A stretch of DNA of 64,000 nt from positions 55,947 through 119,946 of IMG/VR virus record IMGVR_UViG_3300021962_000036, one strand, 5' to 3'. Origin of the DNA: a virus. Below the pieces are notes generated by a model. It was given only the letters and a program-made list of their open reading frames with translations, was not told where the DNA came from and did not search any database. Positions within the stretch are counted from its first letter, which is position 1. Every line of letters begins with the position of its first letter. Positions 1-20,042 of the stretch are shown here, one piece after another. The translations under genes were made by a program, and so were the position numbers.

Positions 1-2793
1 TTATCACAAGCATTTGGAAAAGGAGCAGAAGAACAATTTACAAAACAAGGTTTAAAGACATTCTTAATGGGTGCTTTAACAGGTTCTGTAATCAGACTCC
101 CAACAGCTGTTGCATCACGTTCTTTAGATGCTGCAAATAAAGCTGTTATCAGTAATCAATATAAAAATGATCCAACGTCAAATCCTATTGTAAAAGCTGA
201 AAAGCAATTAGATGAGGACTTGGCACAAATGAACTCATTGTTTAAACAAGCTCATGAGGGTAAGTTTGAACAAAAAGTATTTAACTTTAATGCACAAATG
301 AATGCTGCTCAAGAAGTAGCAGAAGGCGCAGCGCAGGGTTCAAGATATGATTTTGAAAATGGTAAAGATAACTCATTGTTATCTGCTGTAGCAAGTGCAA
401 AACGTACACACTCAATTGACATGCTTTACAAAGCTGTAAAGGATATGGGTGTAGAAATGACTGCTGAAGATTTTGAAAAATCATTTGGTTACAAATTAGA
501 AAACACAAAATATGCTACAGCTCAAGACTTTTCTGAATCTGTAGCTAGAGATATTAAAAAGTATTCTGATACTATTGATAATGTAACAAGTCACGTTAAG
601 AATAAATTAGCCAATCCAATGGCTTATTCTGCAGGTAGTAGAGGTAAATTTGTTACAAGTTTAACAAGACAAGCACAAGAAGATGCTATTCAGGTAATTG
701 CATTGAATAGTGTTAAAGGTGAAATGGCTGCAAATCGTGCTAAACAAGTTGCAAGTGAAATACTAGCTATGCCTAACATGGGCATTTCTGCAGATTTTGC
801 ATTAAGAACTTTGACAAATGCAGGATCAGTTGACGCTGAAGTAGGTAATATTGTTGCAGAACTTAAGATTTTAAATACAAACATGCAGGCAGAAGGTCTT
901 GAACCTGACGCAAAGAAAGCATTGGCTGAACAGATTGCAAATAAACAAGAAGAACTTGCATTAGTTAACAAATGGAAAACATTCTGGGACACTAGAAAAA
1001 ATGTAATAGGGAAAGACTCTGAAGGCAATGATATTGCAGAAGATGAATCTGACTTGTTTGTAGGCCAAAAGTATAGAGGAAAACTTGAAACTCAAGATGA
1101 AAATGGTGACTTTATTTTATCAGAAGAGGAACAGGACTTATTTAGTATAGACCATCCTGAAGTTATAAACACATTCAGAAAGTTAATGTCTATTAAAAAT
1201 AAACAAGCTGGTAACAATACTGAAATATCTGAACAAACACTAAGAGATTCTTTTGAAAAGGTTTATGACTACATGAGATTAGACCAAGACACTAAAGACT
1301 ATATGAGGTCTGTAGATGTGTTAATGAATCCTGAAAATTTCCAAAGAGCATTAGCTAGAATGGCTGATGGTAAGTTTAAACATAAGTTAATCAATTATGT
1401 AGATACAGTATCAGCGCGTTATTCAGTCGCTGCTATGTCTGCTGCAGTAGAACTTGGATTAAATCAACAAGAGTACATAAATCTATTAGCTGATATTGGA
1501 ACTGCTGTAACGTCAAGTGAAGCATACAATAACATTCTTACTTTGGCAGTAGATCCAAATGTTGGTATTGAAAACGCAGAGTATGCTCAAAAATTATCAG
1601 AGCAGATAAATGAAACCATTAAAACTGCAGTTAAAGAAGGTATTGCAAAATACAAGTCTGATGGCATATCTGATTTGTCAGTAGAAGAATTAGATGAAAT
1701 TATTGCAGCTGGTACAATAGATGATGCAAGTGTTAGAAAGTTAGTTATTCTTGACAAGTTAGTAAAGAATCAACCTTTACTTCCTAATGAACAAAAGGTT
1801 TATGATTTGTTTAAAGAAGATTTTGACAAAGAAGCAGAAGCACAGAAAGCTGCACAACCTGTTGCGCAAGAACCTATTATTCCTGTAAATCAAGAAGAGT
1901 TGCCTGAAATTGGCCCTGATGGTGAGTTAGTTGATAGAGTTCCTGTAAATGGTGGTGATCAAGTAGAGGAAGAAGCACCTGTTACATTTGTAGATGAAAA
2001 TGGTGAAGTTGCAGAAGAACCTGCACCTATTGAAACAGAAGTAGAAACTTTAACTCCAGTAGAACCAGCTCAAACACAAACAACAACTGAGGAGGGTGTT
2101 GAAGGTGTTGGTGCTCAAGATGCGTCTAGCATGCTTGCTGGACTACTTGGTATTGAACCTGTAGAGAATGAAGAACCATTTGTTGTTGAAGGTACTACAG
2201 AGTCAGGATTTGATGTTGTAGACAAAAGCAATACTCCAGTAACAAATGAGAAGTTTGAAACAGAAGATAAAGCTCAAGAACTTTCTGACAGTTTAAATGC
2301 TACAAGATTGAACTTAGAGTTTGCTAAACAATTTATATCTCCAATGTTAGAAGATCTTTCTGACAATGGTAAAATTGTAGAGATGCATGATCGTGCGATG
2401 AAATCAATGAAAAGATTTAACAGCATGAACAAGACAAACTTTGAAACTCTTGAAGAATATTACAAGACTCCAAAAGGTAAAGAGTTGTTAAATGGTATTA
2501 GAGATTCTGTCATTTCAGGTCAACCTGTTAAGTATGGTAAACCTAAAGCAATTGTTGTTACAACAAATGATGAGAATCAACCAACATTATTTGATACAAC
2601 AACATCACCAGCAACTTCTGCAAGTTTAACTCTTGAAAGTTTACAAGCATTACACAGTAAAATCCAAGGTTCAATTTCTACACCAGAAGTACAACAAATA
2701 TCAGAAAAAAATAGTAAATTTGTAGAGGGAGGAATTGTCACAGAAGAATCAATTTTAGATGAGTTGAGGAAGATAACTGACTGTTTCTCTTAA
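1..2793 (+). CDS. Giant virion (probably injected) protein, 5' end outside window
   Basis: The reading frame is open from base 1 with coding-like composition, so the ATG at 67 is probably internal and the gene begins upstream of the window. At least 930 codons are visible. The visible part is mostly helical and rich in Ala, Lys and Glu. A small/hydrophobic stretch lies near its start (residues GALTGSVIRL just after 67). A low-complexity Pro/Glu/Val-rich linker runs at about 1840-2120, and a shorter helical domain ends the protein. I see no enzymatic motif. It ends 28 bp before the RNA polymerase-bearing gene, in the position where crAss-like phages encode the giant cargo proteins of the capsid and tail. 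The role in ejection is inferred from this context. Confidence is high that it is a gene and moderate for the role. Confidence 0.85.
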   Translation, partial: LSQAFGKGAEEQFTKQGLKTFLMGALTGSVIRLPTAVASRSLDAANKAVISNQYKNDPTSNPIVKAEKQLDEDLAQMNSLFKQAHEGKFEQKVFNFNAQMNAAQEVAEGAAQGSRYDFENGKDNSLLSAVASAKRTHSIDMLYKAVKDMGVEMTAEDFEKSFGYKLENTKYATAQDFSESVARDIKKYSDTIDNVTSHVKNKLANPMAYSAGSRGKFVTSLTRQAQEDAIQVIALNSVKGEMAANRAKQVASEILAMPNMGISADFALRTLTNAGSVDAEVGNIVAELKILNTNMQAEGLEPDAKKALAEQIANKQEELALVNKWKTFWDTRKNVIGKDSEGNDIAEDESDLFVGQKYRGKLETQDENGDFILSEEEQDLFSIDHPEVINTFRKLMSIKNKQAGNNTEISEQTLRDSFEKVYDYMRLDQDTKDYMRSVDVLMNPENFQRALARMADGKFKHKLINYVDTVSARYSVAAMSAAVELGLNQQEYINLLADIGTAVTSSEAYNNILTLAVDPNVGIENAEYAQKLSEQINETIKTAVKEGIAKYKSDGISDLSVEELDEIIAAGTIDDASVRKLVILDKLVKNQPLLPNEQKVYDLFKEDFDKEAEAQKAAQPVAQEPIIPVNQEELPEIGPDGELVDRVPVNGGDQVEEEAPVTFVDENGEVAEEPAPIETEVETLTPVEPAQTQTTTEEGVEGVGAQDASSMLAGLLGIEPVENEEPFVVEGTTESGFDVVDKSNTPVTNEKFETEDKAQELSDSLNATRLNLEFAKQFISPMLEDLSDNGKIVEMHDRAMKSMKRFNSMNKTNFETLEEYYKTPKGKELLNGIRDSVISGQPVKYGKPKAIVVTTNDENQPTLFDTTTSPATSASLTLESLQALHSKIQGSISTPEVQQISEKNSKFVEGGIVTEESILDELRKITDCFS

Positions 2794-2821
2794 TCTTCGT
2801 AAAATCAAAGAATATAAAGGT

Positions 2822-5800
2822 ATGGCATGTCAAATACAAACTGACAAGTACACTTCAGTTGTACTTAACTTAATTAAATTAGACCCTTCAGTATATAGTA
2901 ATTTTGATAACGCTTCAAAGTTTATACTTGGCAGTGCATTGACACCTGAGCAAAAGATGATGTCATTGCATAACATGGCATATATCTACAAGGGCCTGGC
3001 TGGTATTGATAATAAATTTTACAATGCTGGAAATGCTGAAGGTATCATTAGTGCTGTTGTATTAATGGATGATCCATCAAAGTATGTGTCAAGTGTTAGT
3101 GAAATATTAGGTGTCAAGAAACCTTCAGCTTTAAAAGTTGAGAGTATTTCTAAAGCAATTGATAAGCTATCTTCTAAGAAGAACATCACACGTCAAGATT
3201 TAATTTCTTCTGAAGGTATACTTACATCTGTAAAAAACTATTTCAGTGTTACAGTATTTCCTACTAACGAAGAAAGAGAGCAATTACTAAATGAATTTTC
3301 TACTGCAATTAAAACTGCAATTACAGAACATGATTCACCTCAAGCTCACAAAGACTTCTTAATCAAGCAAGTAGATGAAGCAATAAATTCTTTAAGAAAA
3401 TCTTCTAGTTTTATTCCATTGTCAGATATTGCTAATCTAGCAGATTTGAACAATGTATTGATTACTTTGACAAATGGTCAAATGGTTGAGGGCGTTAGAC
3501 AAGATGAGCAATTTAAAATTATTACAAGTGATGGTTCATTACAAACAGTAGAAGCATCACAGATTCTTACAGCAAAAGATGCACGTGTTGCAGATAACTC
3601 AAGAAGTAATGCTGGAGAACAAGTATTTCAAGAACACACTTTACTTTCTAGTTTTTCAATTAAAGCTGTTGATTCAGCGGATCAATTTGAATTAGAAAAG
3701 AAATTGGCTAACATGAAAAATCCACAAGCTGGTATTAAAATTCATGCAGTCAAGTTAAGCGATGTAGCAGATAGAAGAGTAGAACGTATACAAGAAGCTG
3801 CAAAACAAAATCCTAAGTATTCATCTCTAGAGAATAGAGAACATGAGACTTTTGAAAATGCTACACAAATAAAAGCATTACAATCATCTTCTTCTAAGAA
3901 GATTATGACTGTGTCTAGACCTAAAGCAAGTGAACAACAGTTTGTTCTTGTTGGTGAGATTATTGGAAGTGGTGAGAAATTTTATATGTATTCTTCTGAC
4001 AACTTTGTTTTTGTTAGTAGTGATAACACAACAGAAAGAGTTGACTTTACAAATCCAGAACATATGGAATTGGTTAAGTCTCTTGCTGTAAAGAACACAA
4101 AAGAAGGAAACAAATCATTGTCTGATACAGATATCATTGCAATGTCTGAGTCTAATAAATTATTCCAAGGTTTTAAAGCAAGTCTTTCTGACAAGGTTGC
4201 AAGTTTATCTGATAACTCACTTGATGTTACTAGTGAATTTTTTAATGCTTATGAAGCTAGTTCAAAAAGAACAGACATAAACAAAAAACAATTATTAAAG
4301 AATGAGATTGAAGTAGATACTACTTTATCTAAACCTTTGACAGTTGTTACAATGGTAGATGGAGTTATTGCTAATACAGAAGTAGTTAGTGTACCATTCA
4401 TTTATACAAAAGTAAAAAATGACCCATACATCTTAAAACCATTCTTGGCAAAAGGGCAACTTATTCAATTAGAAAATGGTGCTACTGTTTCTCAAGAAGT
4501 ATACGCAAGTGATGTGTTAGGTATTAATCCTTCTGAGATACAAGGTAAAATTGTAAAACCAGAGCATGGTAATCAACTAAACATATTGTTACGTTTCAAC
4601 AATGATGGTACAATTGGATATAGAAGTATTGCTCCTGTATTACAAATGTCTCAGCAAGTAGAGTTTGCAAAATTCATTGTATCATTGGCTAATATTCTTC
4701 AGACATCTGCAAACAGAACTGGTGATATTAGAAACTTTGATAGAAACTCATATGGTTTTAAGTTTTACAATAAAGCAAAACAAGGACCTAATGATGACAA
4801 TAGAGCACCATTGCGTGTAAACTTTGCAACATCAAAAGCAGGACAGTTACAAATAGAAATAAGACCAATGGACAAACAAGGTCCTTATGGTTTTATTGCT
4901 GAAACAGAAAACAAGAATCAATTTAACTTTCCAGTTAATGAAGCTATTATAACAAACTTAGCTAAAGCATTACTAGGAAAGGGTAATTTAGTTAATCAAG
5001 TAAAAGAAGCATATCCTGCTTTGAAGACTTTGGATTTAACAAATACAAAAGACTTAGTTACATTCTATGAGCAGGTAAACAAATTAAGTAATTCAGAAAC
5101 TGCACTTCCTGTTTTAAAACAGTTAAGTGATAGTATTGAGAAAGCTCAAAAAGAATTTGCTGAATACTTGGTTAATAATATTATAAACAAACTTGCTGAA
5201 AGAACAACAATGTTCCCAGAGTTTGTAGAACAATTAAAGAAAGACTTTACATTCAATGGTGTGTACAGACCAGAATTGTTAGTGGCTGACACTGATGAAT
5301 CAGGTGTATTATATCCTAGAATAGAATATGCACAACCTGCAGAACGCAAAGAGTATCGTGAAGATCTTGCAAACTTTAAAATATTACAAGCAAACAGTAA
5401 GAAGTTTACAGTAGTACCAAAAGCTGCAACTCCACAAGTTACAAAATCACAAGAAGTATTAACTCCAATTGTAGAAAGTGAAAAGATTCACAAACAAGAA
5501 CCTTTAAATACAATTGAAGATGACACTACAGATATTCCTGATATTGAAGTATTCTCTTTAGTTGGGGATGAGAATGTTATTGTAGAGACAGATGAACAAA
5601 GATTAGCAGCATCTGAGTGGTTGTCACAATCTTTACCACAATTTGAAATTGATAATGGTTCTCTAGCAGACATTATTGATCTTACTAAATTAGACGGTAC
5701 TGTTCTTGGTGCATTTAAAGATAGAGTTATCTATTTAAATAATGCATTAAAAGGACAAGGTGTAATTTATCATGAAGCTTTCCACGGTGTATTCAGATTC

Positions 5801-8800
5801 TTAATGAGTTCTGAAGAAAGACAAAATCTTATCAATGCTGTTTCTGATAATAAAAAGCATGCTGGTAAGTTCACAGAAAGCGCTCTAAAGGAGTTTGCAC
5901 GTCAACGCAACTATGTGTATAACAAAGAAGAAATGACGCGCTTACAGGCAGAAGAAATTCTAGCTGATGGATTCCAAAACTACATGTTAAAGAATACTAA
6001 ACCAAAAGGTATTCTTGGTCAGTTTATGGCAATGCTTAAAAAGTTATTGGCAATGTTTGCTTCTAAAGGAGCTTACATTGATAACGTGTATGGTAAAATC
6101 AAAAACGGTCAATATAGAAATGAGGTAATCTCTTCTGGTATACATGAAGGTCAAATAGCTTATGAATTAATACCAGGACTTAAGCAGGTAGTATCAACCC
6201 CAGCAGGTGTTGGGCAAAGAACAAGTGTCTTGTCTAAAGCAGATCAAGATCAACTTGTAAACATGCTTGCAGGATATGTAATTGAAGATGGTCAAAAAGA
6301 AGCATTCTCTACAAAATTTGATAGAATTGCTCAGTTAGTATTAGACTATGAATATAACATGGATGTTTTGTTAAGAACAAACTCTGAGTTATTTAAGTCT
6401 AACCCTGGCCTTAAGGAAAAAGTAATCAAAACAATGGGACCTTTGTATGCTAACTACAGATTTATGTTGGGAGCTAGAGCAAAAGGTGAAGCATTGTATG
6501 ATTTAAATACAACAGATAATCCATCTTATGACAACAGGTTTAACAAAAACAATTCTGTTAAAGTATATGGTGAAGAAGAAGCACAGGATAATCACTTGGG
6601 TCAAGTGTCATATGAGATGCTTAAAAAACAAGTTAAAGAGCAAGTTGATAAAGTAAACTCTATTCTTGATGGTACTGAAAAGACTTCTGATAAAGATGTT
6701 GTTGAAAAAGAAATAGCTGGTGCAAATGAAAATACAATTGCAAATGATGATGCAGAAGACGAACAAGAAGTTTCAGAATCATCTGATTTTGATGCTTCAT
6801 TCAATGAGATAAATGCATTAGAGTCTTTGCCAAGACAAATTAGAAAGTTCTTAGCAGTAGTAAGATATGACCAAGTTCACCCAACATTAGGAATTAAAGT
6901 TCCAAGAATGATTGCAGGTGAACAATTGTTTGGTTCACTTATTAAAGTATCTGCAGAGATGGACCCAAGAAATATTATTGAGCACATCAAGATTGTTGCA
7001 GAACAACAAATTGAAGATGGGTACTTTAATTCTGGAAATGACCTAATGGCTGTTTATGACAAGTTAAGTCGTTACACCAAAATGGATGAGTCAGGAACAC
7101 CTCAATCTAATAAGCAATTATATAACATGATAGTTGATGTCTTACATAAGACTGAGATTGATTATGTAATGATTGATGTAAAAACATCACAAACTTTCTT
7201 GGAAGGGGATGAGGTTCTTACAGATACAAGAAACTTTACACTTGTTGATAAAGTACATTCACAAGATGTAAATAATAAGAAAAGAAATTTAGTTACATCT
7301 GTTATTGAGATGTACAAAGAAAATAAAAATAATCCTGAGTACTTAGCTGCAGTAAATAAATTGTTGCAATTGTCACGTACAATTAAGACAAGCAGTTTTA
7401 TTTTAAGTGATGTTACATCTCAAAATGCAAAATTAGAAAGTATTACTACTGAACTACAAAAAGCATTTGAAGATGTAGGCATGAAGTTTCCTAAGTCTTT
7501 GATTAGAATGTCTGTTATGGCAATTGATCAAGTTGATAATAAAGCAACTTTAAATATTACAGGAACTCCATTAACACATTATAATAATCACTCTAAATTT
7601 ATTTCTGAGAAGAAGTATTTAGAAAAAGATTTCTTTACAGATGTGATTAATATATTTGAAAAGATAAGTGTAAACAAAATCTCTTCAAATGACTTTGCAG
7701 TATTGCTTGATGAAAAGAATAGCAAAAGTGATACAGTTAATCGTTTTAACTCAATCATTAAAAAAGCTGCAGAATATATTGTTAAGTATGATCCTAATGA
7801 ATTACCAAGTACTGTGCGTAACGCAGAGGGTAAACCAATTTACAGATACGTAAGTTATACTCCTGCAACTATTATTGCTCAGTCTATACGTACAAAAGGT
7901 TTACTTGAAACTTTAAAAGAAGATCCTTTCTATGCAGATTTCTTAGAATCTTTCTATGCTGATAATGCAATGTTAGGTGACTTACTTAAAGGATTAGATA
8001 CACAAAAAGCAAGAGAAATGAAATTGTTTATGGACAACTTCAAAGTATCATTGTTTGGAGGTGTATCTCAAACTATTGGAGAAAAACAAAAAGAAGGTAA
8101 AAGTTTTAAAAACATTGATGAAAAATCATTGTACATCACAAACATACTTACATTCTTACAAAGAACTACTGAGGCTAGTTTCAAACAAGAACTAGATGAA
8201 AATGGAAAAGTAAAAGATGTAGCTACAAAGATACAAACATATGTACGTTCCTTCTCTCAGTTAGAAGCATCTCAAACAAACTTCTTAGTGACAGCATTGT
8301 ATAATCAATTTGCTGATTCTAAAGGTCTTGTTATGAATGCTGACAAACGTCTTAAAATTGTAGATACTCTTGAGGCTGTTGTAAAACAAGAATACAACCG
8401 TATTGCAAAAGAGTGGGCAAGAAGTGGTGAAAATAAAACAAACTTTGATAATGCTGACTCTAACAAAATCATTAATAAATATAATGGTGAGTTAGATAAG
8501 AATGATAAATCAAAAGCTGTTACAGATAGTTCATCATTAAGAGCTTACAAATTTAATAAGATTGCAGATTTCTTTAGTGCAAATCCAGAGTTAGAGTCTA
8601 ATGAAACTAAAACTGGTTTAGCAGATTTTGCAAAAGAAGGAATTGCATTTGAAGATCTTGATCAAGAGGTTAAAGATGCATTGCTAGATACATTGGAGAA
8701 CTACGCAAAAGAACAGTTAAACAAACATGCTACTAAGCTTATTGATTTAGGTATCCTGCAAAAAGCAATACAAAAACAAAGAAACTCTAAAGGCGATGTA

Positions 8801-11800
8801 ATTACAAGAGGAGTAGGTGGGCCAGAAGCAGAAGCAATTACTTACTATACTTCTACACTTATACCTTCTGTATTAAAAGTTGACAGTGCTCCTGCGGTAT
8901 CTATTGATGGACTTTACCAAAAGACTAAAGAGAACTACAATGAGGCTGGATTTAAAATAGATTCTTCAACTGATTTAAGAGGGTTAGTTGCTGATGCTTT
9001 CTTTAATAACTGGATGAACGCATTACAATTTAATGAGATCATTGATGGTGACATTGCAATGAACGTTAAAGATGCAACTGATTACTTTAAACGTAATAAA
9101 AAATTATTAGCTGGAGGTAGCACAATGAAAGAAGGTTACCATAAAGTAGCTTTCTTAAATACTATTGAAGGATACATCAATGAGAGCTATCCACAGTATG
9201 GTCCTTACTATTCTAAGCAAGAAGTTATTGAAGATGAATCTATTAAGTCAGATGCAGTAAGAGAAAAGATTCTTAAAGAATATGGCTCTTCTATGTATGA
9301 AATATTTGATGGTCAAAGTGTATCATCCCTTATGCATCAAATTGACATGCATGAGTCCATGGGTAGATTGAGTCCTGAAATATTACACTCTCTTATTGCT
9401 AAGCATTACCGTGAGCTTTCTGAAACAGAAATACGCGTAATGGAAGCGGGTAAGGTTGTAAACAATCCTAAGAAGACTGTTACAGCTGCAAGAAATAGTT
9501 ATCATAAACAATCTGAGAACTATATTGACAGAAATGACGTAAGTGTTCTTACACCAAAAGCTGGTCAAAAGGTTAATGATGCTTATGAAGCATTGCATGG
9601 TTTATACATGGACATTTATAACTTGCGTGGACAACGCCAAGATTTAGTTCTTGCTGGTGAATTAGGCGCTCTTACAGATATAGATAACGCTATTATAAAG
9701 AATGTAGAAGAAATTCATACATACTTTAAACCATTACCACACCGTGAGATTTTACATAACATTTTAAATGCTATGGAGTATCATCAAGTTGATCAACTTA
9801 TGGATACCACTGCATCTAAAAATGCTACAATGCTTCCTGTAGATTATGCAACAGAATCAGAAAGAATTGCAGGAAAAGATAGTTATATTAATCTTGCAAT
9901 GTCTTCTTTGAGTGTAGATAATAAGTTCAAGTTCTTACAAGTAGAGACTTCTGGTGTTAAAGATAAAGCTAAGTTTTCTGTACAAAGTAAGGCCCTTATT
10001 GCTGCTGACTTAATTAATCTTGCTGAGATTGCTAGAGTTAGTGGATTAGACATTACAGATTCTGAACAAAAAGCAATTGATAACATTGCTAGTGTTCTTG
10101 AAAATTATCAAAGCACATTAAAAGAAATTGGTGTTTCTAACTTAGCTAATTTAAAAACTATCTTGAGAAAAGATGGTGACTTTGAAGTAGGTAAAATATT
10201 TACACTTATACGTACAAGTTTAGAAGAACAGGGTGCTCCAACAGCAACATTAAAGTTATTTGATGTAGATGCTTCTGGTAAGCCAGTTCATAGTGCAAAC
10301 CTTCCAGGTGTGCGCAACATGCTTGAGTATTATTTCTTTTCACAATATTCTAAAAATGTTACAGATGAAAAAGGTTCTGGTTTTAAAAATATACATATCT
10401 CTTCTTTTGGTTATAATGTACTTGAAGATGAAAATGGAAATGTTATCACTACAGAACAATATCGTAAGAATCCTACAGCTTTTGGTATAGTAAGATCAAG
10501 ACCATTAGGTGTTACCATTGAAGAAGTAAATGGTGTTAAGACTTACTTTGTAGAAACAATCATGCCTAAGCCTTTATTTAAAAGTGCTGCACATGAAAGA
10601 TTTTACATGGAAAACTTAACCAAAATGTTTGGTGTACGTATTCCTACAGAAGATAAGCGTTCAATGATAGCAATCAAAGTAGTTGACTTTATTGATAGTT
10701 CTAACTTGAATGGTGTAATTGTACCACACTTTGTACATTTGCTTGCTGGTTCTGACTTTGACGTAGATGCTTTATATGGTCAAACATTTGCACACTACTT
10801 TGATTTATCAGGTAATCCTAAGTTATATGGTGAGTATCAAGATGGAAAGAATACAAACTTAAACAAGTATGCTGAGTTTGTTCAGTACATGAGTAAGGAT
10901 GCTGATCTAAAAGCGTTAATTAAAAAAGAAACAAAAGGACTACTTGAAAATAGTTCTTATGAAATAACAGAAGAAGCTTTAAGTATTCTATACCATTCTG
11001 GATTTGATGAGTCAGATTATAATGGTGCAATGAATTTTGCAGAACTTAAAGAATCTTATGATAATCTTGTTATTGACATTGAGGAATTGATGGAAATAAG
11101 AGATGAAGCTAAAGAAGAGTTTGTTGATGCTATTAGAAGAAATGAAGTTAATCCTTCAGATAGACGCGCACTACAAGATAGACTTGATTTAGGCAAAGAG
11201 GTAGGTGAGTATAATGAAGAACTTGGACAGAAACGTGATCAAAGAAATCAATATGGTAGAGAAGTAAGTAGAGCTAAGCGTTTTACATTTGCAGGACTGA
11301 AAGTTGCTGCTACATTACAAGCGTTTACTAAGATGGGATTACCAACAAGTGCACAAGCATTTGAAGCAAATCCTAACTATGCATTATCTGTACGTCCTAT
11401 ATTCCAAAATAAAAACTTACAAGCTAAATTAGACATTGTTTCTAATGAGGCTGTACACAAATTCTTGTACATTCACGAAAGATCTTCTACTCAACGTTTT
11501 GAAGATATCTTAGAATCATTTGGTATTGACATTAAAGATTTCTCTACCAAATATAATATGTACACAACTGATGGTGTAGTTTCCACAAAAGTAGGAAACG
11601 CCATGAACAAGGATGGTATTGGTATTACAGCAAACATTAACAAGTTCTTGGCTCTTGCATCTCAATATGGTTTGGAATTAAAACCTGAAAATGTTATTTG
11701 GGCATTTAAAAATGCAGATTTAGACCAAGTAAACTTGAATAAATTTGGTACATTAAATGCTGAAGATCAACGTGTTATAGCATTAATTGGTAACATTCTT

Positions 11801-14143
11801 GGTATGTTTGCGGATGGTGCTAAGAAACCTATTCCTGCAGCATTGCAAATGAATGAGGTAAATGCTGGTGTTACACTTGCTATGATTGGTGTAGGTATGT
11901 CACCTGAGTTTGCTATTGGATTTAACTTTATACCTGAGATTAAAAAAGCAGTACAAAGTGTTCAGTCTACAAAATATGCTATCAGTGAGTCTATGGCTAC
12001 TGCATATAAATTCTTAAACAATGAGGTAGCTGAACAAATAAAATTGTTAGCTGCTGATAACAAAGATGCATTGAACAACTTAATCAGTTCAGGTTTAATA
12101 TCTCCAAGATCAAATCCTTATAACATTATTATCAATAAAGACAAACTCTTAATTGATTTTAAAGCAAGAGCATTAGATCCAAAAGCAGTATTAAGTAATA
12201 CATTATCTTCTACAGATATTGGTTACAAAGTATCTGCAATTGTAGAATCTAAGTCTGAAGAAAATGCTGCAGAAAAAATATTGAACAGAGTTGAACTATC
12301 TGAGGTTGAACAAAAAATGATTTTGTTACAGCTTTATAAAGAACAGGCTCAACAAACATTTGACATTAAACGCGCAGGTTCTCTTATTGACTTATTCAAA
12401 AAACTTAATCCATCTTTTGTAAACTTTGATAAGTTACTAACTAACGTTAGAAATTTACAAGCAGGTGAAAGTATCTTTACAAGAGAAACAAGTGATAAAA
12501 TATTTGAAGGCAATCAAGTATGGCCACAATTGTTAGAAGCTATTGAAGACTTAAATGAGCAATCATCTAAAATATTCTTAGAAAGAACAGAGTTCTTTGC
12601 TCCAATTAAAAAAGCATTTGAAAGTGTATTTACTGATCAAGCTAATATTGCTAAGATTATCACAAGCTTTGTAGCATTAAGAAAATACCAAATGTCTATG
12701 CCAGGTAGCAGGATTACAGGTACAGCAATGGATGCTTTGATACAAGAAGATGATCAAAACTTAATACAATCATTTACTCCTGAGTTCTGGTTTACAAATG
12801 ATTTAGCAGGAGAATTAGAGGATATGCAAAAAAGATATCCTCAGAATAAGTTCTTGCAATTACTAAGACCTGATATATCTGATAACAAAGTATTCTTGAA
12901 GTCTGGTGGTTATCTAAATGAAAGAAGTATTAAGATGATCAACAAATCTAAGATTTCAGGTAAGTTGGCAGACGAGGTATCAGATGACGCAGATTTCTTA
13001 TTGAGAAATGAGAATATGTTTATGAAGAAGTTATTCTATCATGAGCTTGCTAAAACTGGTATGCAATACAAATCAGGTTCTTTCTTACAGTATATGAATC
13101 CTGAAATGCAATTAGATTTATCTGGTTACATTGAAACATTCATTTCTAAACTTGAAGAAACAAAGGGTGACCGTTACAAGTTAATTAGTGCTATTCAAGA
13201 ATTTTTAGGTAAAGAAGTTACTGAGAAAGAAGTTTATGATTTGTTTGATGAACTGTTTGTTCAAATGGCTCAAGCTGCAAGTAAAGAAGTTGGTAATACC
13301 AAAATTAAAATTGCAGATCCACTATCATTGAACAACATGTCAAACATAATGACATCACTTCAGTTTGAAGAAGGGACCAAAGATAGAGAACGCAGAGCTG
13401 TTGCTAGAGAAGTAATAGCTAGAGTTACAGGTCAACTTACAGAAGGTGATGCTATGCGTGTAAGATTGGTTGACACAATAGATAAAAAACCAGTAGAAAT
13501 ATTGGATATTAACATGGATGTACCTAAAGATGTTGCACAAGCATCTAAGAAAACTGTAGATGAGATTGGCAAGAAGTTGGGTATTAGATTTAATCCTATT
13601 GATGAGGTATATCAATTTCCATTAATGATTTCTATTGGTAGAAGTAAATACTTACTGCAAGGTGTTGATGATGAGATTGGTAATAATAGTTTTGGTAAAA
13701 CAGTTATCAATTCTATTGTAGGGAAGGGAGAATACATCAGTAAAGGTATGTCTGCTAGATATGCATTGATTCCATCACAACTTACAGCTGGAACATTAAG
13801 TCCTATTGGGTTTACAAAAGAGAACACTAAGAAATATATGGATTATGTTTCTGGCAAGGAAAAAATGGAGTATATTGCACCAGAGATTAAAAAGTCTGAA
13901 GAATCAGTAGCAAAACTACCAGAATCTACAGAAAAACAAACTCAAGAATCTGTAACTAAATCTCAGTTGCAAATTGATATGGACAACTTAAACTTAACTG
14001 ATGAGGTTGTTAATTCTTTATATTCAGAAAGTAGTAAGAGAATGGCTCCAGATGTATTTAAAGCTGCAGCGCAAGGTATGATTGCTAACCTAAGAGCAAC
14101 AATGTCAAATGAACAAATTATAGATAAAATTAAGTGCTTATAA
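2822..14143 (+). CDS. Giant virion RNA polymerase protein with zincin-like domain
   Basis: This 3,773-residue protein carries two recognisable elements. Residues 984-988 read HEAFH (an HExxH zinc-protease motif), followed about 56 residues later by an EEILADGF segment (E1044/E1045) that could supply a third ligand, as in gluzincins. Residues 2645-2649 read DFDVD after a hydrophobic run and a Gly-Ser, matching the catalytic D-x-D-x-D Mg-binding loop of crAss-like virion RNA polymerases (family known from Cellulophaga phage phi14:2). The family role is DNA-dependent RNA synthesis by a YonO-like single-chain polymerase packaged in the particle and injected to transcribe early genes. It is longer than the 2,180-residue phi14:2 protein, consistent with added N-terminal domains. 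The remainder is helical and unassigned. The next giant gene starts just past its stop (TAATATG). The polymerase call is firm; whether the zincin is an active protease is not shown. Confidence 0.88.
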   Translation: MACQIQTDKYTSVVLNLIKLDPSVYSNFDNASKFILGSALTPEQKMMSLHNMAYIYKGLAGIDNKFYNAGNAEGIISAVVLMDDPSKYVSSVSEILGVKKPSALKVESISKAIDKLSSKKNITRQDLISSEGILTSVKNYFSVTVFPTNEEREQLLNEFSTAIKTAITEHDSPQAHKDFLIKQVDEAINSLRKSSSFIPLSDIANLADLNNVLITLTNGQMVEGVRQDEQFKIITSDGSLQTVEASQILTAKDARVADNSRSNAGEQVFQEHTLLSSFSIKAVDSADQFELEKKLANMKNPQAGIKIHAVKLSDVADRRVERIQEAAKQNPKYSSLENREHETFENATQIKALQSSSSKKIMTVSRPKASEQQFVLVGEIIGSGEKFYMYSSDNFVFVSSDNTTERVDFTNPEHMELVKSLAVKNTKEGNKSLSDTDIIAMSESNKLFQGFKASLSDKVASLSDNSLDVTSEFFNAYEASSKRTDINKKQLLKNEIEVDTTLSKPLTVVTMVDGVIANTEVVSVPFIYTKVKNDPYILKPFLAKGQLIQLENGATVSQEVYASDVLGINPSEIQGKIVKPEHGNQLNILLRFNNDGTIGYRSIAPVLQMSQQVEFAKFIVSLANILQTSANRTGDIRNFDRNSYGFKFYNKAKQGPNDDNRAPLRVNFATSKAGQLQIEIRPMDKQGPYGFIAETENKNQFNFPVNEAIITNLAKALLGKGNLVNQVKEAYPALKTLDLTNTKDLVTFYEQVNKLSNSETALPVLKQLSDSIEKAQKEFAEYLVNNIINKLAERTTMFPEFVEQLKKDFTFNGVYRPELLVADTDESGVLYPRIEYAQPAERKEYREDLANFKILQANSKKFTVVPKAATPQVTKSQEVLTPIVESEKIHKQEPLNTIEDDTTDIPDIEVFSLVGDENVIVETDEQRLAASEWLSQSLPQFEIDNGSLADIIDLTKLDGTVLGAFKDRVIYLNNALKGQGVIYHEAFHGVFRFLMSSEERQNLINAVSDNKKHAGKFTESALKEFARQRNYVYNKEEMTRLQAEEILADGFQNYMLKNTKPKGILGQFMAMLKKLLAMFASKGAYIDNVYGKIKNGQYRNEVISSGIHEGQIAYELIPGLKQVVSTPAGVGQRTSVLSKADQDQLVNMLAGYVIEDGQKEAFSTKFDRIAQLVLDYEYNMDVLLRTNSELFKSNPGLKEKVIKTMGPLYANYRFMLGARAKGEALYDLNTTDNPSYDNRFNKNNSVKVYGEEEAQDNHLGQVSYEMLKKQVKEQVDKVNSILDGTEKTSDKDVVEKEIAGANENTIANDDAEDEQEVSESSDFDASFNEINALESLPRQIRKFLAVVRYDQVHPTLGIKVPRMIAGEQLFGSLIKVSAEMDPRNIIEHIKIVAEQQIEDGYFNSGNDLMAVYDKLSRYTKMDESGTPQSNKQLYNMIVDVLHKTEIDYVMIDVKTSQTFLEGDEVLTDTRNFTLVDKVHSQDVNNKKRNLVTSVIEMYKENKNNPEYLAAVNKLLQLSRTIKTSSFILSDVTSQNAKLESITTELQKAFEDVGMKFPKSLIRMSVMAIDQVDNKATLNITGTPLTHYNNHSKFISEKKYLEKDFFTDVINIFEKISVNKISSNDFAVLLDEKNSKSDTVNRFNSIIKKAAEYIVKYDPNELPSTVRNAEGKPIYRYVSYTPATIIAQSIRTKGLLETLKEDPFYADFLESFYADNAMLGDLLKGLDTQKAREMKLFMDNFKVSLFGGVSQTIGEKQKEGKSFKNIDEKSLYITNILTFLQRTTEASFKQELDENGKVKDVATKIQTYVRSFSQLEASQTNFLVTALYNQFADSKGLVMNADKRLKIVDTLEAVVKQEYNRIAKEWARSGENKTNFDNADSNKIINKYNGELDKNDKSKAVTDSSSLRAYKFNKIADFFSANPELESNETKTGLADFAKEGIAFEDLDQEVKDALLDTLENYAKEQLNKHATKLIDLGILQKAIQKQRNSKGDVITRGVGGPEAEAITYYTSTLIPSVLKVDSAPAVSIDGLYQKTKENYNEAGFKIDSSTDLRGLVADAFFNNWMNALQFNEIIDGDIAMNVKDATDYFKRNKKLLAGGSTMKEGYHKVAFLNTIEGYINESYPQYGPYYSKQEVIEDESIKSDAVREKILKEYGSSMYEIFDGQSVSSLMHQIDMHESMGRLSPEILHSLIAKHYRELSETEIRVMEAGKVVNNPKKTVTAARNSYHKQSENYIDRNDVSVLTPKAGQKVNDAYEALHGLYMDIYNLRGQRQDLVLAGELGALTDIDNAIIKNVEEIHTYFKPLPHREILHNILNAMEYHQVDQLMDTTASKNATMLPVDYATESERIAGKDSYINLAMSSLSVDNKFKFLQVETSGVKDKAKFSVQSKALIAADLINLAEIARVSGLDITDSEQKAIDNIASVLENYQSTLKEIGVSNLANLKTILRKDGDFEVGKIFTLIRTSLEEQGAPTATLKLFDVDASGKPVHSANLPGVRNMLEYYFFSQYSKNVTDEKGSGFKNIHISSFGYNVLEDENGNVITTEQYRKNPTAFGIVRSRPLGVTIEEVNGVKTYFVETIMPKPLFKSAAHERFYMENLTKMFGVRIPTEDKRSMIAIKVVDFIDSSNLNGVIVPHFVHLLAGSDFDVDALYGQTFAHYFDLSGNPKLYGEYQDGKNTNLNKYAEFVQYMSKDADLKALIKKETKGLLENSSYEITEEALSILYHSGFDESDYNGAMNFAELKESYDNLVIDIEELMEIRDEAKEEFVDAIRRNEVNPSDRRALQDRLDLGKEVGEYNEELGQKRDQRNQYGREVSRAKRFTFAGLKVAATLQAFTKMGLPTSAQAFEANPNYALSVRPIFQNKNLQAKLDIVSNEAVHKFLYIHERSSTQRFEDILESFGIDIKDFSTKYNMYTTDGVVSTKVGNAMNKDGIGITANINKFLALASQYGLELKPENVIWAFKNADLDQVNLNKFGTLNAEDQRVIALIGNILGMFADGAKKPIPAALQMNEVNAGVTLAMIGVGMSPEFAIGFNFIPEIKKAVQSVQSTKYAISESMATAYKFLNNEVAEQIKLLAADNKDALNNLISSGLISPRSNPYNIIINKDKLLIDFKARALDPKAVLSNTLSSTDIGYKVSAIVESKSEENAAEKILNRVELSEVEQKMILLQLYKEQAQQTFDIKRAGSLIDLFKKLNPSFVNFDKLLTNVRNLQAGESIFTRETSDKIFEGNQVWPQLLEAIEDLNEQSSKIFLERTEFFAPIKKAFESVFTDQANIAKIITSFVALRKYQMSMPGSRITGTAMDALIQEDDQNLIQSFTPEFWFTNDLAGELEDMQKRYPQNKFLQLLRPDISDNKVFLKSGGYLNERSIKMINKSKISGKLADEVSDDADFLLRNENMFMKKLFYHELAKTGMQYKSGSFLQYMNPEMQLDLSGYIETFISKLEETKGDRYKLISAIQEFLGKEVTEKEVYDLFDELFVQMAQAASKEVGNTKIKIADPLSLNNMSNIMTSLQFEEGTKDRERRAVAREVIARVTGQLTEGDAMRVRLVDTIDKKPVEILDINMDVPKDVAQASKKTVDEIGKKLGIRFNPIDEVYQFPLMISIGRSKYLLQGVDDEIGNNSFGKTVINSIVGKGEYISKGMSARYALIPSQLTAGTLSPIGFTKENTKKYMDYVSGKEKMEYIAPEIKKSEESVAKLPESTEKQTQESVTKSQLQIDMDNLNLTDEVVNSLYSESSKRMAPDVFKAAAQGMIANLRATMSNEQIIDKIKCL

Positions 14144-14144
14144 T

Positions 14145-17100
14145 ATGAACACATGTCCAAATCCAAATAGTCCTGAGTGGAAAGAACTAGTAGCAAAACT
14201 AGGTGAAGGTCAGGCTATGACTGCTTATACTTTAAATGGAAACAACACTCCTTCTGTTGAAGAAGCTGAAGCATTATTAAGCAAACTTAAGGTTGAAGAA
14301 AAAGATGAACAAGTATCAAGATCTTCAGATGAGTTTAAACTACAACGTGCTGTACAACAAAGAACTTCTTTAGAAAAACTTAAGTTCCAGGCTAATCCTA
14401 AACAGAAAGCTACAATTGATCAGCTTATCACAATGAATGATAACTATCAAGAGTTCTTAAGAAAGAACATAGAACTTGCAAAGAATGGACAACCTATTAT
14501 AAAAACAGTAAGTGTTTCTAACTTTATTGGTTCTTCTGACTTTAATGTAGATCCTAAAGAGTATGAGGCGTTCAAATTATTTGGAACATTCATGCATGAG
14601 GTGTTAGAGTTGGGGCAACTTAAGTCTTTGGATACAGGAAAATCTATTTTTGAAATTGTTGATGAAGACTTCTTTAAAGAAGCTTATGATAACTACACAA
14701 AAAAGAATCCTTTCTTTATTGAAAACTTGGATGAGTCAACCATGTTTGATATGGCAAAGCGTTTAGCAATGCATGTATCTATACACAACGACAGAGGATA
14801 CATGATTCTTCCAGAGATTACAGTAACAGGTACTACCAGAACAGGGACTACAGTTATTGGACGTTTGGATTTAATGTTGGTAGATACTCAAGGACGCGTA
14901 AGTGTATTTGACTTTAAGACTAAGAAAGTAAAACGTCTTGTAGAGTATGATCCAATTGGTCAACCAGTAATGAATGAAGATTTAGCATTTGTTGATCTTG
15001 CAGAAAAATCATTTCCTGTTTCAAATAAAGAAGGAACATCTCCTGCGTTTAGAGGTCAGGGTAGAACAGCATATGATACTTGGACATTGCAATTAAAGGT
15101 GTATGAAAATATCTTGCAGCAAAGTGGTCTTGAGGTTAACGCTCAATCTATTGTTGCTCTTATGTATCAAACAGATGATAACAAGAAGTTTGTTGGAGCT
15201 ACTGTCCATGTATTTGATGAAGATAACTATTACAACTATGCAGGTTCAGCAGATATTCCAAATAATAATGGTCACTGGGTTGCAGATCCTACAAGAGGCG
15301 CAGACTTAATTAAAAGTCTAAGAGATGTTGTAGATAAAGAAATACCAACATCTGATGTAGAGGAAGAAGAAAAAGCAAAAAAGGAAGCAAAACTATTGGA
15401 GTTTGAACCTACTTCTAAAAATGATGAAACATTAAGAAATAGGTTAAAGCAAATTGTAGATGCAGAGTTAGATGAAATTGGCAAACAAATTAAAGAACTT
15501 GATTCTAACCAAAGTAATCCTGCACTTAGAGAAATATTAGCAACTAGACGTAAAACATTAAATGATTTTAATGCTATTATGTCAAGACCTCAATCTGAAG
15601 AAGATGTAAAGTATTCAGTAAACTTAGCATTAGCTATTGAATCTGTAGGTGTTGATTTGGAAACTTTATCAAGATTGTCAGATGAGGCAATTGTAAATTT
15701 TAAAATAAACAAAGATTCTTATACTTCAAAAGAAGGTGCACAAATTCTTGAAGCTTACAAAAAGTCTAAATCATTAGACATTATTGTAGACATTATCAAA
15801 GAAATTGTAGATGATGCTAGAAGTAATCCTGATAATAACATTACAGTTGACAGTGAAATAATGAAACGTCTTTCTGAGATGGAGTCTTCATTAGCTAGAG
15901 TACAATCAAACTTTGCAAAGGTTGCAATGCACAACAGCATTCAGGTATTAAAAACTCCTGGAAGCAAAGTATTTGCAGAAGTAAATGCTGACATAAAAGA
16001 GGCATTACAAGCTAAGTTAATCAGTTTAAAAAAACAACTTGAAAATTTAAAAGCTGGAAAAGCTAATAGTATATTTCAGTCTATTAAATCTTCTGCTCTT
16101 TCTTTTATGAGTAAAGAGTACAAACAAAAACTTGCAGAGAAACTAGAAAAGGATGGCAACAATGATACTCCAGGTTTAATGTTAGAGATTGAAAAGCTTG
16201 AAAAACAAATACTTACAGTTGAAGCTGTCATTGATGGTGGATTAGATTTTGATGACGCTGCTTTAGAAAGATATATTTCTGGTGTAACAACGTCAACGTC
16301 AAATCTTTATTTAGGTTCTAACACAGCATTCAATAGTAATAGTTGGTTACAAAACTTAATGTTAGATAAAGCAATTGCATCTGCTTCAAATAGTAGTGTT
16401 GAAATTGCAGCGTTTACAATGATGTTAAAAAATGCTGAAGGATTGGCTAGAATGGAAATTCAAAACAACCTTGCTGTGTTAAAGTTTGATCAGAAGAGAG
16501 ACTCTCTTTTAAAGAGAATGTCAGTTGAACAACTTAATGAAAGAGTATCTGAGTGGAGAAAAACTACAAGTATAGATAAAGAAGGCAATCCTGTAGAGAA
16601 GAACATTCTTTATATGACCAAACCTTTTGGTGAAGAGTATGAAAATACATACAGATCATTTAGTGCTACAATCAGACAGTTAAATAAAGAAATTTATGAA
16701 GCTAAGATTAAGTACAATGAAAACATTAAAACTGCAGAAGCACAACAATATAAAGATGCTTACCTAGCAAAGCAATCAGAAAGAGAAGCAGAAAATACCA
16801 AGTATATTAAATGGATGATGGACAATGCTCATTTACCTTTTAATGAGAAGTTTTATGAACTGCAACTTGGAATGCCTCATGATATTAAAGATAAGTTACA
16901 AGAGAAGTATCTTGAAATTGAAACAATAACCTTCCAGGTAGGTAAAGGTAATGAAGTGCTACTTGAGGATCATGACTTTGAACGTTTGCAAGAGTTGGAG
17001 ATTGAGATTAAAAAACTTAGAGTAGAAGCAAAAAAACTTAACCCAAAGTATGCAGATATGATAGATGAGTTTAACTCACTATTTGAATTTGATACTAACC

Positions 17101-20042
17101 AAGCATTCTTTGATAGAATGCAGTTCAATGCAAAATCTAGATATGAATCTGAGCATCCAGAACTATGGGAGAAATGGAAAAAAGATAATACTGTTAATAG
17201 ACCAACTTCTGAGTGGTATGAAGAACTTAGTGCTTTATATGAAGCAAGAGCTGCTATATTTGGTTCAGATCCACAGATTGCTGACCTTATGCAAAAGCGT
17301 AGAGACATACTTTCTCCTTACAAAATTGGTGGAAGAATTAAACCTCAGTATTTAAGTCAGTCTGAAATTGATTCTTTAAGTGAGATTGATGCAGAAATTG
17401 AAAGCATCATTGAACAAAATTCTAAATCTGGAGGCACGCTTACTGCTGATGAGAAAAAAGCATCAAGAGAAATAACAGATGCTATTAAAAGAATATCATC
17501 ACTTCAATTGAGTGAATCTTATAATGATACTTTTGAATCAAAAGTAAAATCATTGTACGCACATCAAAGATCAATCATTGATGCTGAAAATAAACTTGCT
17601 ACTGCTAGAACAGCAGGAGATAAGAAAGCAATTGAAGATGCAGAAGAAGCATTGATTTTTGAGGAAACTCAATATGGAATGCAAGAGGCTGAATTTGAGA
17701 CATGGTATAACATGCACCATGAAAACAAATATCAAAGTATTCTTAGTGGGTATGACATTAGAAATAATAGAGTACCAAAAAACTTTAACTTTGAAAAACT
17801 ACCTGCTGCAACTGTAAAGGATCAGTACATGGAAACTGTACCTCATCCTAAATATAAAATCAAACGCTTAAAAGAATCTTCTAAGAATCCTGAATTCTTG
17901 AAGTCACCTGACGGTGTTCCAATGCCAAAAGCAATTAGTAAAAACAAGGATGGCAATTATATAGTTACTCCTGGTTATGAGAACTCTCCTAACATTAATC
18001 CTAAGTATAAAGAGTTAATGAAAGACCAAGAGTTATTTAGTTTTTATAATGACACAATGAAAATGTTCTTTGAACTTCAAATGAAAACTGAAGGACGTAA
18101 GATTGGTTATCAAGTTCCAGGATTTGCTGCATCAACTGTTGAGAATATTTCTAGTAAAGGAATGTTAAGTTCTATTGATGCTGAATGGCAAAAGTTTGTT
18201 GACAAAAGTGTAAAAGTATATGGTTCACAAGATGCTGTTGAAAATGTATTTGGTGATCTTGGTTCTAAGATTAGACATAGATTTACAGATCAATTACCTG
18301 AAAACTTGCAGTCAAGAGATGCAATTGGATCAATTATAAAGTACACAACAGAAGCTCATTACAATATTGCAATGCAAAGTGTTGCTCCTCAAGCAGATAT
18401 GTACATTGAGCATTTAGAGTTTATGGCTGAACAATTACAAAAAAATATTCAGCAGGATAAACCTATGTTTCTTAGAGATGAAGCAACAGGTAAGGAAGTT
18501 AAAGTAGATATGTCTAAGCGTTTAGGTGAACTTAAAAATGTAATTAGCATTCTTCAGTTTGAACGCAGAAAATTCTTATACGGTCAAACAGAAAGTGGTA
18601 ATGACTTAAACAGAAAGCTTACCAAAAGAATGAACTCTGTATTTGCTTATACAAGTTTTATCAGAATTGGTTTTGATGTTGCCAACCAGGCAAAGAACTA
18701 CATCTCTGGAAACGTGCAAGCATTTATTGCTGCAGGTGGATTAGCAGGTGATAAGTATACACAAGCTGATTACATGTGGGCTAAATCTAAAGTATATGGA
18801 TACAATGGATTCTTGCATAACTATTTTGCTGATTGGGGTAAAGTAAGTGATGTTAGTGATTCTACAATGTTATATCGCTTTTTTAATCCTGCACAAAAAG
18901 ACTTTTTAAAATATGTTTCTGAAATTACAGGTACAAAAGGGCGTAGACTAAAAGGTAAAGCGTTGAATGTCCAAGAGTTAGGATACATGTTACAAGATAA
19001 AGGTGATACTGAAATTGCAGTTACAGTAATGTATGCTGTCATGAATCACCACAGATTTAGAGTTATTGATAGTTTTGACAGCCAAGGTAATCCTGTTTAC
19101 AAGAAAGATGCTAATGGTGAAGATGTAACAGTACCAGTTCATGAAATCTACATGAAAGATTCAGAAGGACGTATGGTTAAAAGAAGTGATGTAGAGTACA
19201 CTCAAGATGATGAAAACAGAATAAGAAACATTATCTATTCTGAAATGAGGCGTGCTCAGGGTAACTACGCTAAAGCTGACCAAACAAAGTTTGAAGAAAA
19301 CATGATTGGTAAAATGGTATTCTTCTTTAGAAAATACCTTGTGCCTCAGTTACTTAATAGATTTGGTTACTTAAGACCAAACTGGGAAGGTTCAGAAGCA
19401 GCAATGGGATACTGGAGTGCAGTAGCTACAGCATGGAAAGCATATGGTCCTCAAGAAGTTGGTAAACATTTATTACTAGGAAGTAAAAGAATGTCTAAAA
19501 ACAATAAGAATCAGATGGGTAGCTTTTTGACAAGAAAGGTTAACCAGGCAAGAAGAGATGCAATTGCAATGTTAGTATTGACTGTGTTAGGTATCTTGGC
19601 TAAGAGTTATGTTAATAAGAAAGATGATGATGATGAGGAACTAAGTTTCTTAGAAGGTAACGCCATTAGGGTTCTATGGGGCGTAAAAGGTGAAACTGTA
19701 TCAATGTTCCCTGTTGGTGGAGGTTCTGAAGAATACATCAGAAACTTTACAACTGTATCATCTTATACTAGAGAGTTAAATGCTCTTAAGAAGTTTGGTT
19801 CACACGCAATTAGTTATGGTATGGCTATGACAATAAATGGTGGTGAGGAGCCAGATCCAGATAATGACAGCGAACTTTACCAAGATATCTGGAAAGATGC
19901 ATTCTATGGACGTAAGTATGGAGCATACCAAAAAGGTGATGCTAAAATAGGAAAAGACCTTATGGATCTTACAGGTATTAAAAACTTTAGAGATCTAGTC
20001 AACCCTAATTACAGAATAGATCAGATGAAAGGCAAGCAGTAA
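14145..20042 (+). CDS. Giant virion protein with N-terminal PD-(D/E)XK nuclease domain
   Basis: A 1,965-residue protein. Residues about 145-260 form a RecB/Cas4-like PD-(D/E)XK nuclease core: H151 in a FMHEVLE helix, D242 in GRLDLML, and D256-F-K258 in VFDFKTKK, in the right order and spacing for metal-dependent DNA cleavage. Long charged coiled-coil stretches follow (about 400-1,200). One hydrophobic segment (AMLVLTVLGILA, near residue 1807) sits before an acidic DDDDEE run near the C terminus. It starts two bases after the stop of the RNA polymerase gene, so it is in the same transcription unit and probably also a cargo protein. The nuclease call rests on visible motifs; the biological target (host DNA, phage DNA ends) is unknown. 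Confidence 0.85.
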   Translation: MNTCPNPNSPEWKELVAKLGEGQAMTAYTLNGNNTPSVEEAEALLSKLKVEEKDEQVSRSSDEFKLQRAVQQRTSLEKLKFQANPKQKATIDQLITMNDNYQEFLRKNIELAKNGQPIIKTVSVSNFIGSSDFNVDPKEYEAFKLFGTFMHEVLELGQLKSLDTGKSIFEIVDEDFFKEAYDNYTKKNPFFIENLDESTMFDMAKRLAMHVSIHNDRGYMILPEITVTGTTRTGTTVIGRLDLMLVDTQGRVSVFDFKTKKVKRLVEYDPIGQPVMNEDLAFVDLAEKSFPVSNKEGTSPAFRGQGRTAYDTWTLQLKVYENILQQSGLEVNAQSIVALMYQTDDNKKFVGATVHVFDEDNYYNYAGSADIPNNNGHWVADPTRGADLIKSLRDVVDKEIPTSDVEEEEKAKKEAKLLEFEPTSKNDETLRNRLKQIVDAELDEIGKQIKELDSNQSNPALREILATRRKTLNDFNAIMSRPQSEEDVKYSVNLALAIESVGVDLETLSRLSDEAIVNFKINKDSYTSKEGAQILEAYKKSKSLDIIVDIIKEIVDDARSNPDNNITVDSEIMKRLSEMESSLARVQSNFAKVAMHNSIQVLKTPGSKVFAEVNADIKEALQAKLISLKKQLENLKAGKANSIFQSIKSSALSFMSKEYKQKLAEKLEKDGNNDTPGLMLEIEKLEKQILTVEAVIDGGLDFDDAALERYISGVTTSTSNLYLGSNTAFNSNSWLQNLMLDKAIASASNSSVEIAAFTMMLKNAEGLARMEIQNNLAVLKFDQKRDSLLKRMSVEQLNERVSEWRKTTSIDKEGNPVEKNILYMTKPFGEEYENTYRSFSATIRQLNKEIYEAKIKYNENIKTAEAQQYKDAYLAKQSEREAENTKYIKWMMDNAHLPFNEKFYELQLGMPHDIKDKLQEKYLEIETITFQVGKGNEVLLEDHDFERLQELEIEIKKLRVEAKKLNPKYADMIDEFNSLFEFDTNQAFFDRMQFNAKSRYESEHPELWEKWKKDNTVNRPTSEWYEELSALYEARAAIFGSDPQIADLMQKRRDILSPYKIGGRIKPQYLSQSEIDSLSEIDAEIESIIEQNSKSGGTLTADEKKASREITDAIKRISSLQLSESYNDTFESKVKSLYAHQRSIIDAENKLATARTAGDKKAIEDAEEALIFEETQYGMQEAEFETWYNMHHENKYQSILSGYDIRNNRVPKNFNFEKLPAATVKDQYMETVPHPKYKIKRLKESSKNPEFLKSPDGVPMPKAISKNKDGNYIVTPGYENSPNINPKYKELMKDQELFSFYNDTMKMFFELQMKTEGRKIGYQVPGFAASTVENISSKGMLSSIDAEWQKFVDKSVKVYGSQDAVENVFGDLGSKIRHRFTDQLPENLQSRDAIGSIIKYTTEAHYNIAMQSVAPQADMYIEHLEFMAEQLQKNIQQDKPMFLRDEATGKEVKVDMSKRLGELKNVISILQFERRKFLYGQTESGNDLNRKLTKRMNSVFAYTSFIRIGFDVANQAKNYISGNVQAFIAAGGLAGDKYTQADYMWAKSKVYGYNGFLHNYFADWGKVSDVSDSTMLYRFFNPAQKDFLKYVSEITGTKGRRLKGKALNVQELGYMLQDKGDTEIAVTVMYAVMNHHRFRVIDSFDSQGNPVYKKDANGEDVTVPVHEIYMKDSEGRMVKRSDVEYTQDDENRIRNIIYSEMRRAQGNYAKADQTKFEENMIGKMVFFFRKYLVPQLLNRFGYLRPNWEGSEAAMGYWSAVATAWKAYGPQEVGKHLLLGSKRMSKNNKNQMGSFLTRKVNQARRDAIAMLVLTVLGILAKSYVNKKDDDDEELSFLEGNAIRVLWGVKGETVSMFPVGGGSEEYIRNFTTVSSYTRELNALKKFGSHAISYGMAMTINGGEEPDPDNDSELYQDIWKDAFYGRKYGAYQKGDAKIGKDLMDLTGIKNFRDLVNPNYRIDQMKGKQ

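Follow-up and report, generated by a model that had tools for sequence, protein, structure and literature searches.

The window analysed here is a 64,000-nucleotide stretch that corresponds to bases 55,947-119,946 of a 119,946-base virus record. It includes an ORF that begins with an ATG at position 2,822, ends with a stop codon at 14,143, has no internal stops and encodes a 3,773-amino-acid protein, just as an earlier note on this DNA had claimed. The ORF sits in a run of giant genes with structural genes on one side and tail fibres on the other. The genome belongs to the Crassvirales, as it encodes both a homologous portal and a homologous terminase, which are recognised by PHROGs. The portal matches those of crAss-like phages (uncultured cr10_1, E = 2e-28) and Cellulophaga phi17:2, and the best match, at 31.5%, is the portal of the cyanobacterial phage Leptolyngbya phage Lbo-JY46 (PP438436). 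Searches with the whole 3,773-amino-acid protein against PHROG, Pfam and PDB sequences returned nothing usable. The features of the region are listed below.

1..2793, + strand: preceding giant ORF of the cargo block, open at the left end of the window
2822..14143, + strand: fused cargo protein of 3,773 aa (N-terminal module, zincin and virion RNA polymerase)
2822..5521, + strand: N-terminal module, residues 1-900, from the conservation map
5534..6361, + strand: putative zincin domain, residues about 905-1180, from the 83-homologue alignment, AF2 models and the match to the Intestiviridae zincin profile
5771..5785, + strand: HEAFH, residues 984-988, with predicted zinc ligands H984 and H988 and predicted general base E985
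5954..5956, + strand: E1045, predicted third zinc ligand, in an ExxA(D/E)xF helix
6359..6571, + strand: junction, residues about 1180-1250, approximate, counted from homologues
6569..13621, + strand: virion RNA polymerase module, residues about 1250-3600, approximate, from the profile comparison with 6VR4
10637..10672, + strand: RIPTEDKRSMIA, residues 2606-2617, the highest conservation within the polymerase
10754..10768, + strand: DFDVD, residues 2645-2649, catalytic metal-binding loop of the polymerase
14145..20042, + strand: following protein of 1,965 aa, related to phi14:2 gp076

The 1,965-amino-acid protein shows a PDDEXK_1 nuclease match at residues 139-262 (E = 1.6e-5), and the ORF at 1..2793 has weak similarity to Lbo-JY46 XAI97382. 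Lbo-JY46 possesses relatives of both flanking giant proteins with no zincin-polymerase ORF between them; its protein XAI97381 includes two HExxH motifs. Residues 1-900 of the fused protein had no match in Pfam or PHROG and probably correspond to the portion of crAss001 gp47 that precedes the gp47 zincin.

The polymerase module

The earlier note had taken DFDVD to be the loop of a crAss-like virion RNA polymerase, and profile comparison bore this out. An 11-sequence profile of the polymerase region (alignment A2) matched the crystal structure of the phi14:2 virion RNA polymerase (6VR4) with E = 3.3e-79 over 920 profile positions, which is almost the whole profile; the core extends over about residues 2212-3130, and the G.DFD.D and RIPT motifs are aligned. 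DFDVD falls in invariant columns of A2 and is the sole DxDxD of the protein, for which shuffling gives an expectation of 0.9 DxDxD and 0.05 DFDxD. Using the second half of the protein as query, tblastn identified crAss002 gp33, p-crAssphage gp44 and other polymerase proteins at about 1e-12. Counting from homologues, the module begins near residue 1250, immediately after the zincin. By homology, which we consider settled, residues about 1250-3600 are a two-barrel RNA polymerase of the phi14:2 type. The polymerase is presumably packed in the virion, as judged from its crAss001 and phi14:2 homologues: gp47, gp49 and gp50 were detected by mass spectrometry in crAss001 virions (PMC10172136), and gp076-gp083 of phi14:2 are virion proteins according to the record annotation derived from MS/MS.

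The zincin domain and its relatives

HEAFH is, as the earlier note had pointed out, present at residues 984-988; the protein has no other HExxH, and composition shuffles give an expectation of 0.03. When residues 801-1800 were used as tblastn query a single stretch, about 933-1100, matched the C-terminus of crAss001 gp47. This C-terminal zincin, in which HEAFH and EE are kept, is the nearest relative from a phage with studied virions, and gp47 is annotated as 'putative RNA-polymerase subunit'. An alignment of 83 homologous domains, with 17-92% identity to that of the window, has only four invariant columns, H984, E985, H988 and E1045, while E1045 follows the second histidine at a spacing that ranges from 30 to 68 residues. 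The domain tolerates an insert, and as far as the alignment indicates it does not tolerate changes at these four residues. The EE pair that had been proposed as the source of the gluzincin glutamate can now be narrowed: E1044 is the weaker candidate (E in 80 of the 83 domains) and, since E1045 is invariant (83/83), the latter is the likely third ligand.

Many of the 83 loci had been found by HExxH motif scans, so that the conservation of HEAFH among them is biased by the search pattern, and HExxH was therefore rechecked on loci selected on the polymerase alone. Eighty such loci were available (a redundant collection, 35 of them being in the non-redundant tree set), seven of which are cut off before a complete zincin. 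HExxH is kept in 72 of the 73 informative loci, either in the polymerase protein itself or in the one before it: 61 loci have it in the zincin domain, and 11, from Intestiviridae-type genomes, have it close to the C-terminus of the protein before. The background elsewhere in these giant proteins is 0.027 HExxH per 1000 aa. When invariant 12-residue segments were ranked in 20 full-length relatives, the polymerase segment with RIPTEDK came first and the DFDVD and HEAFH stretches tied for second; clade-wide, the HEAFH and EE sites are in the top five together with polymerase catalytic motifs. The dN/dS value of the zincin core against the nearest relative is 0.07, similar to that of the polymerase core, and HExxH is under purifying selection.

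In a model of residues 904-1184 (mean pLDDT 78.5), a helix at the N-terminus is followed by strands, the HExxH helix and a long helix that carries E1044/E1045. In this model and in that of a compact homologue, L072 (pLDDT 89.3, pTM 0.83), the order of elements (N-terminal helix, small sheet, HExxH helix, glutamate helix) fits the zincin fold. Helix placement in the AF2 model as well as invariance favour E1045 as the predicted ligand. A search of solved structures with this 281-amino-acid model of the window's own domain gave no useful match, probably as a result of the insert and a flexible tail. The top two PDB matches of L072 were the gluzincins PprI and IrrE (probability 0.63, TM 0.41-0.43), with E values of 0.43 and 0.68 that are non-significant taken alone; against viral predicted structures its named significant matches came from crAss-like phages, followed below significance by IrrE-like phage proteins. 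The IrrE/PprI and ImmA gluzincins (COG2856, M78) resemble the domain in having HExxH and a glutamate helix of similar pattern, and IrrE/PprI are the nearest solved folds, but the fold similarity is weak and none of the Pfam peptidase families, not even M78, matches the zincin sequence. The M78 family PF06114 gave no hit with the window's domain up to E = 1, was absent from the 25 families listed for the 83 members, and had no match in the phage genome. The zincin alignment had no match among PDB sequences; its weak Pfam and PHROG matches were spread over unrelated families and were dismissed as noise.

Profile comparisons link the domain to other phage zincins; they were run one-to-one, hence their E-values are lenient. 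The same invariant H, E, H, E quartet is found in a set of 13 Intestiviridae-type zincins, p-crAssphage gp45 among them, which the window-type profile matched with 90% probability (E = 1.6e-6, 100 columns). The Intestiviridae-type set in turn matched the metallopeptidases of N4-like virion RNA polymerases with 87% probability (E = 4.3e-6, 131 columns), and the direct comparison of the window type with the N4 zincin gave 37% (E = 3.6e-4, 44 columns). Negative controls with an unrelated profile were at 0.1-0.3%. The Schitoviridae relatives in the N4 set were drawn from GenBank; a scan of IMG/VR for N4-type zincins found N4 itself only. If this connection is right, related zincins would be joined to two unrelated virion polymerases. 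In bacterial genomes we found five relatives, two of which (L189 and L192) are also accompanied by a phage-type polymerase while the others are small contigs or fragments, and thus nothing points to a cellular family. In the GTDB contigs L190 and L192 the zincin or polymerase frames are interrupted by stops, which may reflect stop-codon reassignment.

By sequence, the stretch at residues about 905-1180 is a metallopeptidase domain of the gluzincin type with the predicted active-site quartet H984, E985, H988 and E1045. The coexistence in one chain of a gluzincin-type zincin and a crAss-like polymerase, as the earlier note had envisaged, is thus upheld by the homology of both modules. Its link to a protease, offered there as an inference, gains support as regards the domain but is less new than it appeared, as p-crAssphage gp45 already carries the annotation 'putative RNAP associated protein fused to zincin protease'.

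Fused and split arrangements

A single ORF holds zincin and polymerase in 64 of the 88 rows of the polymerase tree, and four changes account for all the zincin-polymerase arrangements on it. Fusion is the rule in the clade of the window and may be ancestral, the root of the tree being a midpoint root only. Two other clades are split: in the Intestiviridae type the zincin ends the protein before the polymerase; in the Steigviridae type it terminates a gp47-like protein and the polymerase is usually on the other strand. In the split genomes of crAss001 and Dulem virus 41 the break into two proteins coincides with the junction at about residues 1180-1250. In L160 and L064 zincin and polymerase share single ORFs of 6,887 and 5,782 aa that run off the end of the locus, and L064 has two extra HExxH motifs upstream. 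L007 and L008 have a second HExxH (HEAIH) in the protein that follows the polymerase.

The idea that the zincin is universal was dropped, as it is absent in phi14:2 and L163; the domain is therefore dispensable in some lineages. In phi14:2 (KC821624) no zincin was found in gp077 or gp078; gp076 and gp081 do contain HExxH motifs. The C-terminus of phi14:2 gp078, at the place occupied by the zincin in relatives, includes a GNAT-like motif recognised by eye (YRRKGIASSVY), which suggests that enzyme modules beside the polymerase are exchangeable.

Several known systems resemble the arrangement in the window. In p-crAssphage (Carjivirus communis, BK010471) the zincin of gp45 lies directly upstream of the phi14:2-type polymerase gp44 but, unlike in the window, the two proteins are separate and the zincin is divergent (HESLH), connected via profile comparison only. 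In crAss001, gp47 and gp50 are also two genes, on opposite strands. The 4,946-amino-acid gp14 of cr118_1 (NC_055872) does have both a zincin (HEAFH at about 1737) and a polymerase (DFDID at about 3212) within a single chain; however, it is distant, its zincin being 25% identical, and it is annotated only as 'exonuclease V'. N4-like virion RNA polymerases carry polymerase and an HExxH...E zincin in one injected chain (PMC5512222), although their polymerase is T7-like and unrelated and the zincin is C-terminal, after the polymerase. Thermus phage P23-45 gp96 is a giant chain with a two-barrel-type virion RNA polymerase and a metallopeptidase (PMC10770324); in contrast to the protein of the window it is the tail tape measure protein of a long-tailed phage, and the two metallopeptidases are likened by domain label. 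The 2017 paper that reported N4 polymerases to be always fused to zincins, and that put forward cis action or host proteins as targets for them, makes no mention of crAss in its text (PMC5512222), and we found no paper on a crAss zincin in the open-access literature searched.

Possible role of the zincin

The conservation of the quartet makes it very likely that the zincin is an active protease. The opposite reading, that HExxH is a chance motif or that a dead fold merely holds the chain together, could appeal to the lack of a significant match to a solved peptidase, and we regard it as extremely improbable: the residues that alone remain invariant while the identity of the domain falls to 17% are four of catalytic type, the independent Intestiviridae-type set has the same quartet, and HExxH persists in the loci selected on the polymerase (72/73). 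A structural role by itself would not predict this pattern.

The 3,773-amino-acid protein is best explained as a crAss-like fused cargo protein. We favour, as a probable reading, that its zincin is an active protease which accompanies the polymerase and acts in trans. Homologues suggest that the protein is carried in the virion and enters the cell together with the DNA; in the host cell, its most likely site of action, the zincin would then cut a host or defence protein while the polymerase transcribes early genes. Two readings of the kind that the earlier note had raised, cleavage of this protein or of neighbouring giant proteins, we rate lower. The location of the zincin at the junction where split genomes place a gene boundary makes self-processing worth considering, by a cut at or near residues 1180-1250 that would free the polymerase in the head or after ejection, and autoproteolysis has been proposed for the zincins of polyvalent proteins, P1 DdrB being cleaved before packaging (PMC5512222). 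Steigviridae- and Intestiviridae-type genomes, however, retain an intact quartet although their polymerase is a separate gene, and the N4 virion polymerase, with its zincin, is reported to be packaged unprocessed (PMC5512222), so release of the polymerase is not the sole role of the zincin. Moreover, the phi14:2 virion polymerase is functional (PMC7886860) with no zincin there or at the end of the preceding chain. We therefore consider processing in cis rather unlikely, and a target other than the protein's own junction probable. A protease that cuts back nearby cargo or structural proteins as the virion matures would agree with the packing of homologues beside other cargo proteins (PMC10172136) and with the proximity of the gene to structural genes, but the main text of the crAss001 structural paper mentions no cleavage of virion proteins (PMC10172136) and the domain is dispensable in phi14:2 and L163; this role seems improbable.

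For the favoured action in trans, a host protein as the substrate is a tentative guess by analogy with the cleavage of repressors by IrrE/ImmA proteases; IrrE cuts the repressor DdrO (PMC7907104). A more specific proposal, which we consider speculative and on the whole unlikely, is that a virion-delivered IrrE/ImmA-like protease would cut a host regulator of transcription or defence at the onset of early transcription. Unrelated polymerases, two-barrel in crAss-like phages and T7-like in N4, would each have been coupled to related zincins for a service that they need, and phi14:2 would have swapped its zincin for an acetyltransferase-like domain.

The zincin-polymerase pairing is, on good support, widespread in crAss-like phages and not new in kind, its precedents being the annotation of p-crAssphage gp45, the N4 polymerase zincins (PMC5512222) and P23-45 gp96 (PMC10770324). 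What is added here is its breadth, the invariant quartet, the choice of E1045, the fused form as a common state, the profile link to the N4 zincins and the exceptions phi14:2 and L163. Four residues that can be mutated are now named, and phi14:2 and L163 can be used as natural controls. CrAss-like phages are among the most abundant viruses of the human gut, and the question of what their injected putative protease cuts is now directly testable.
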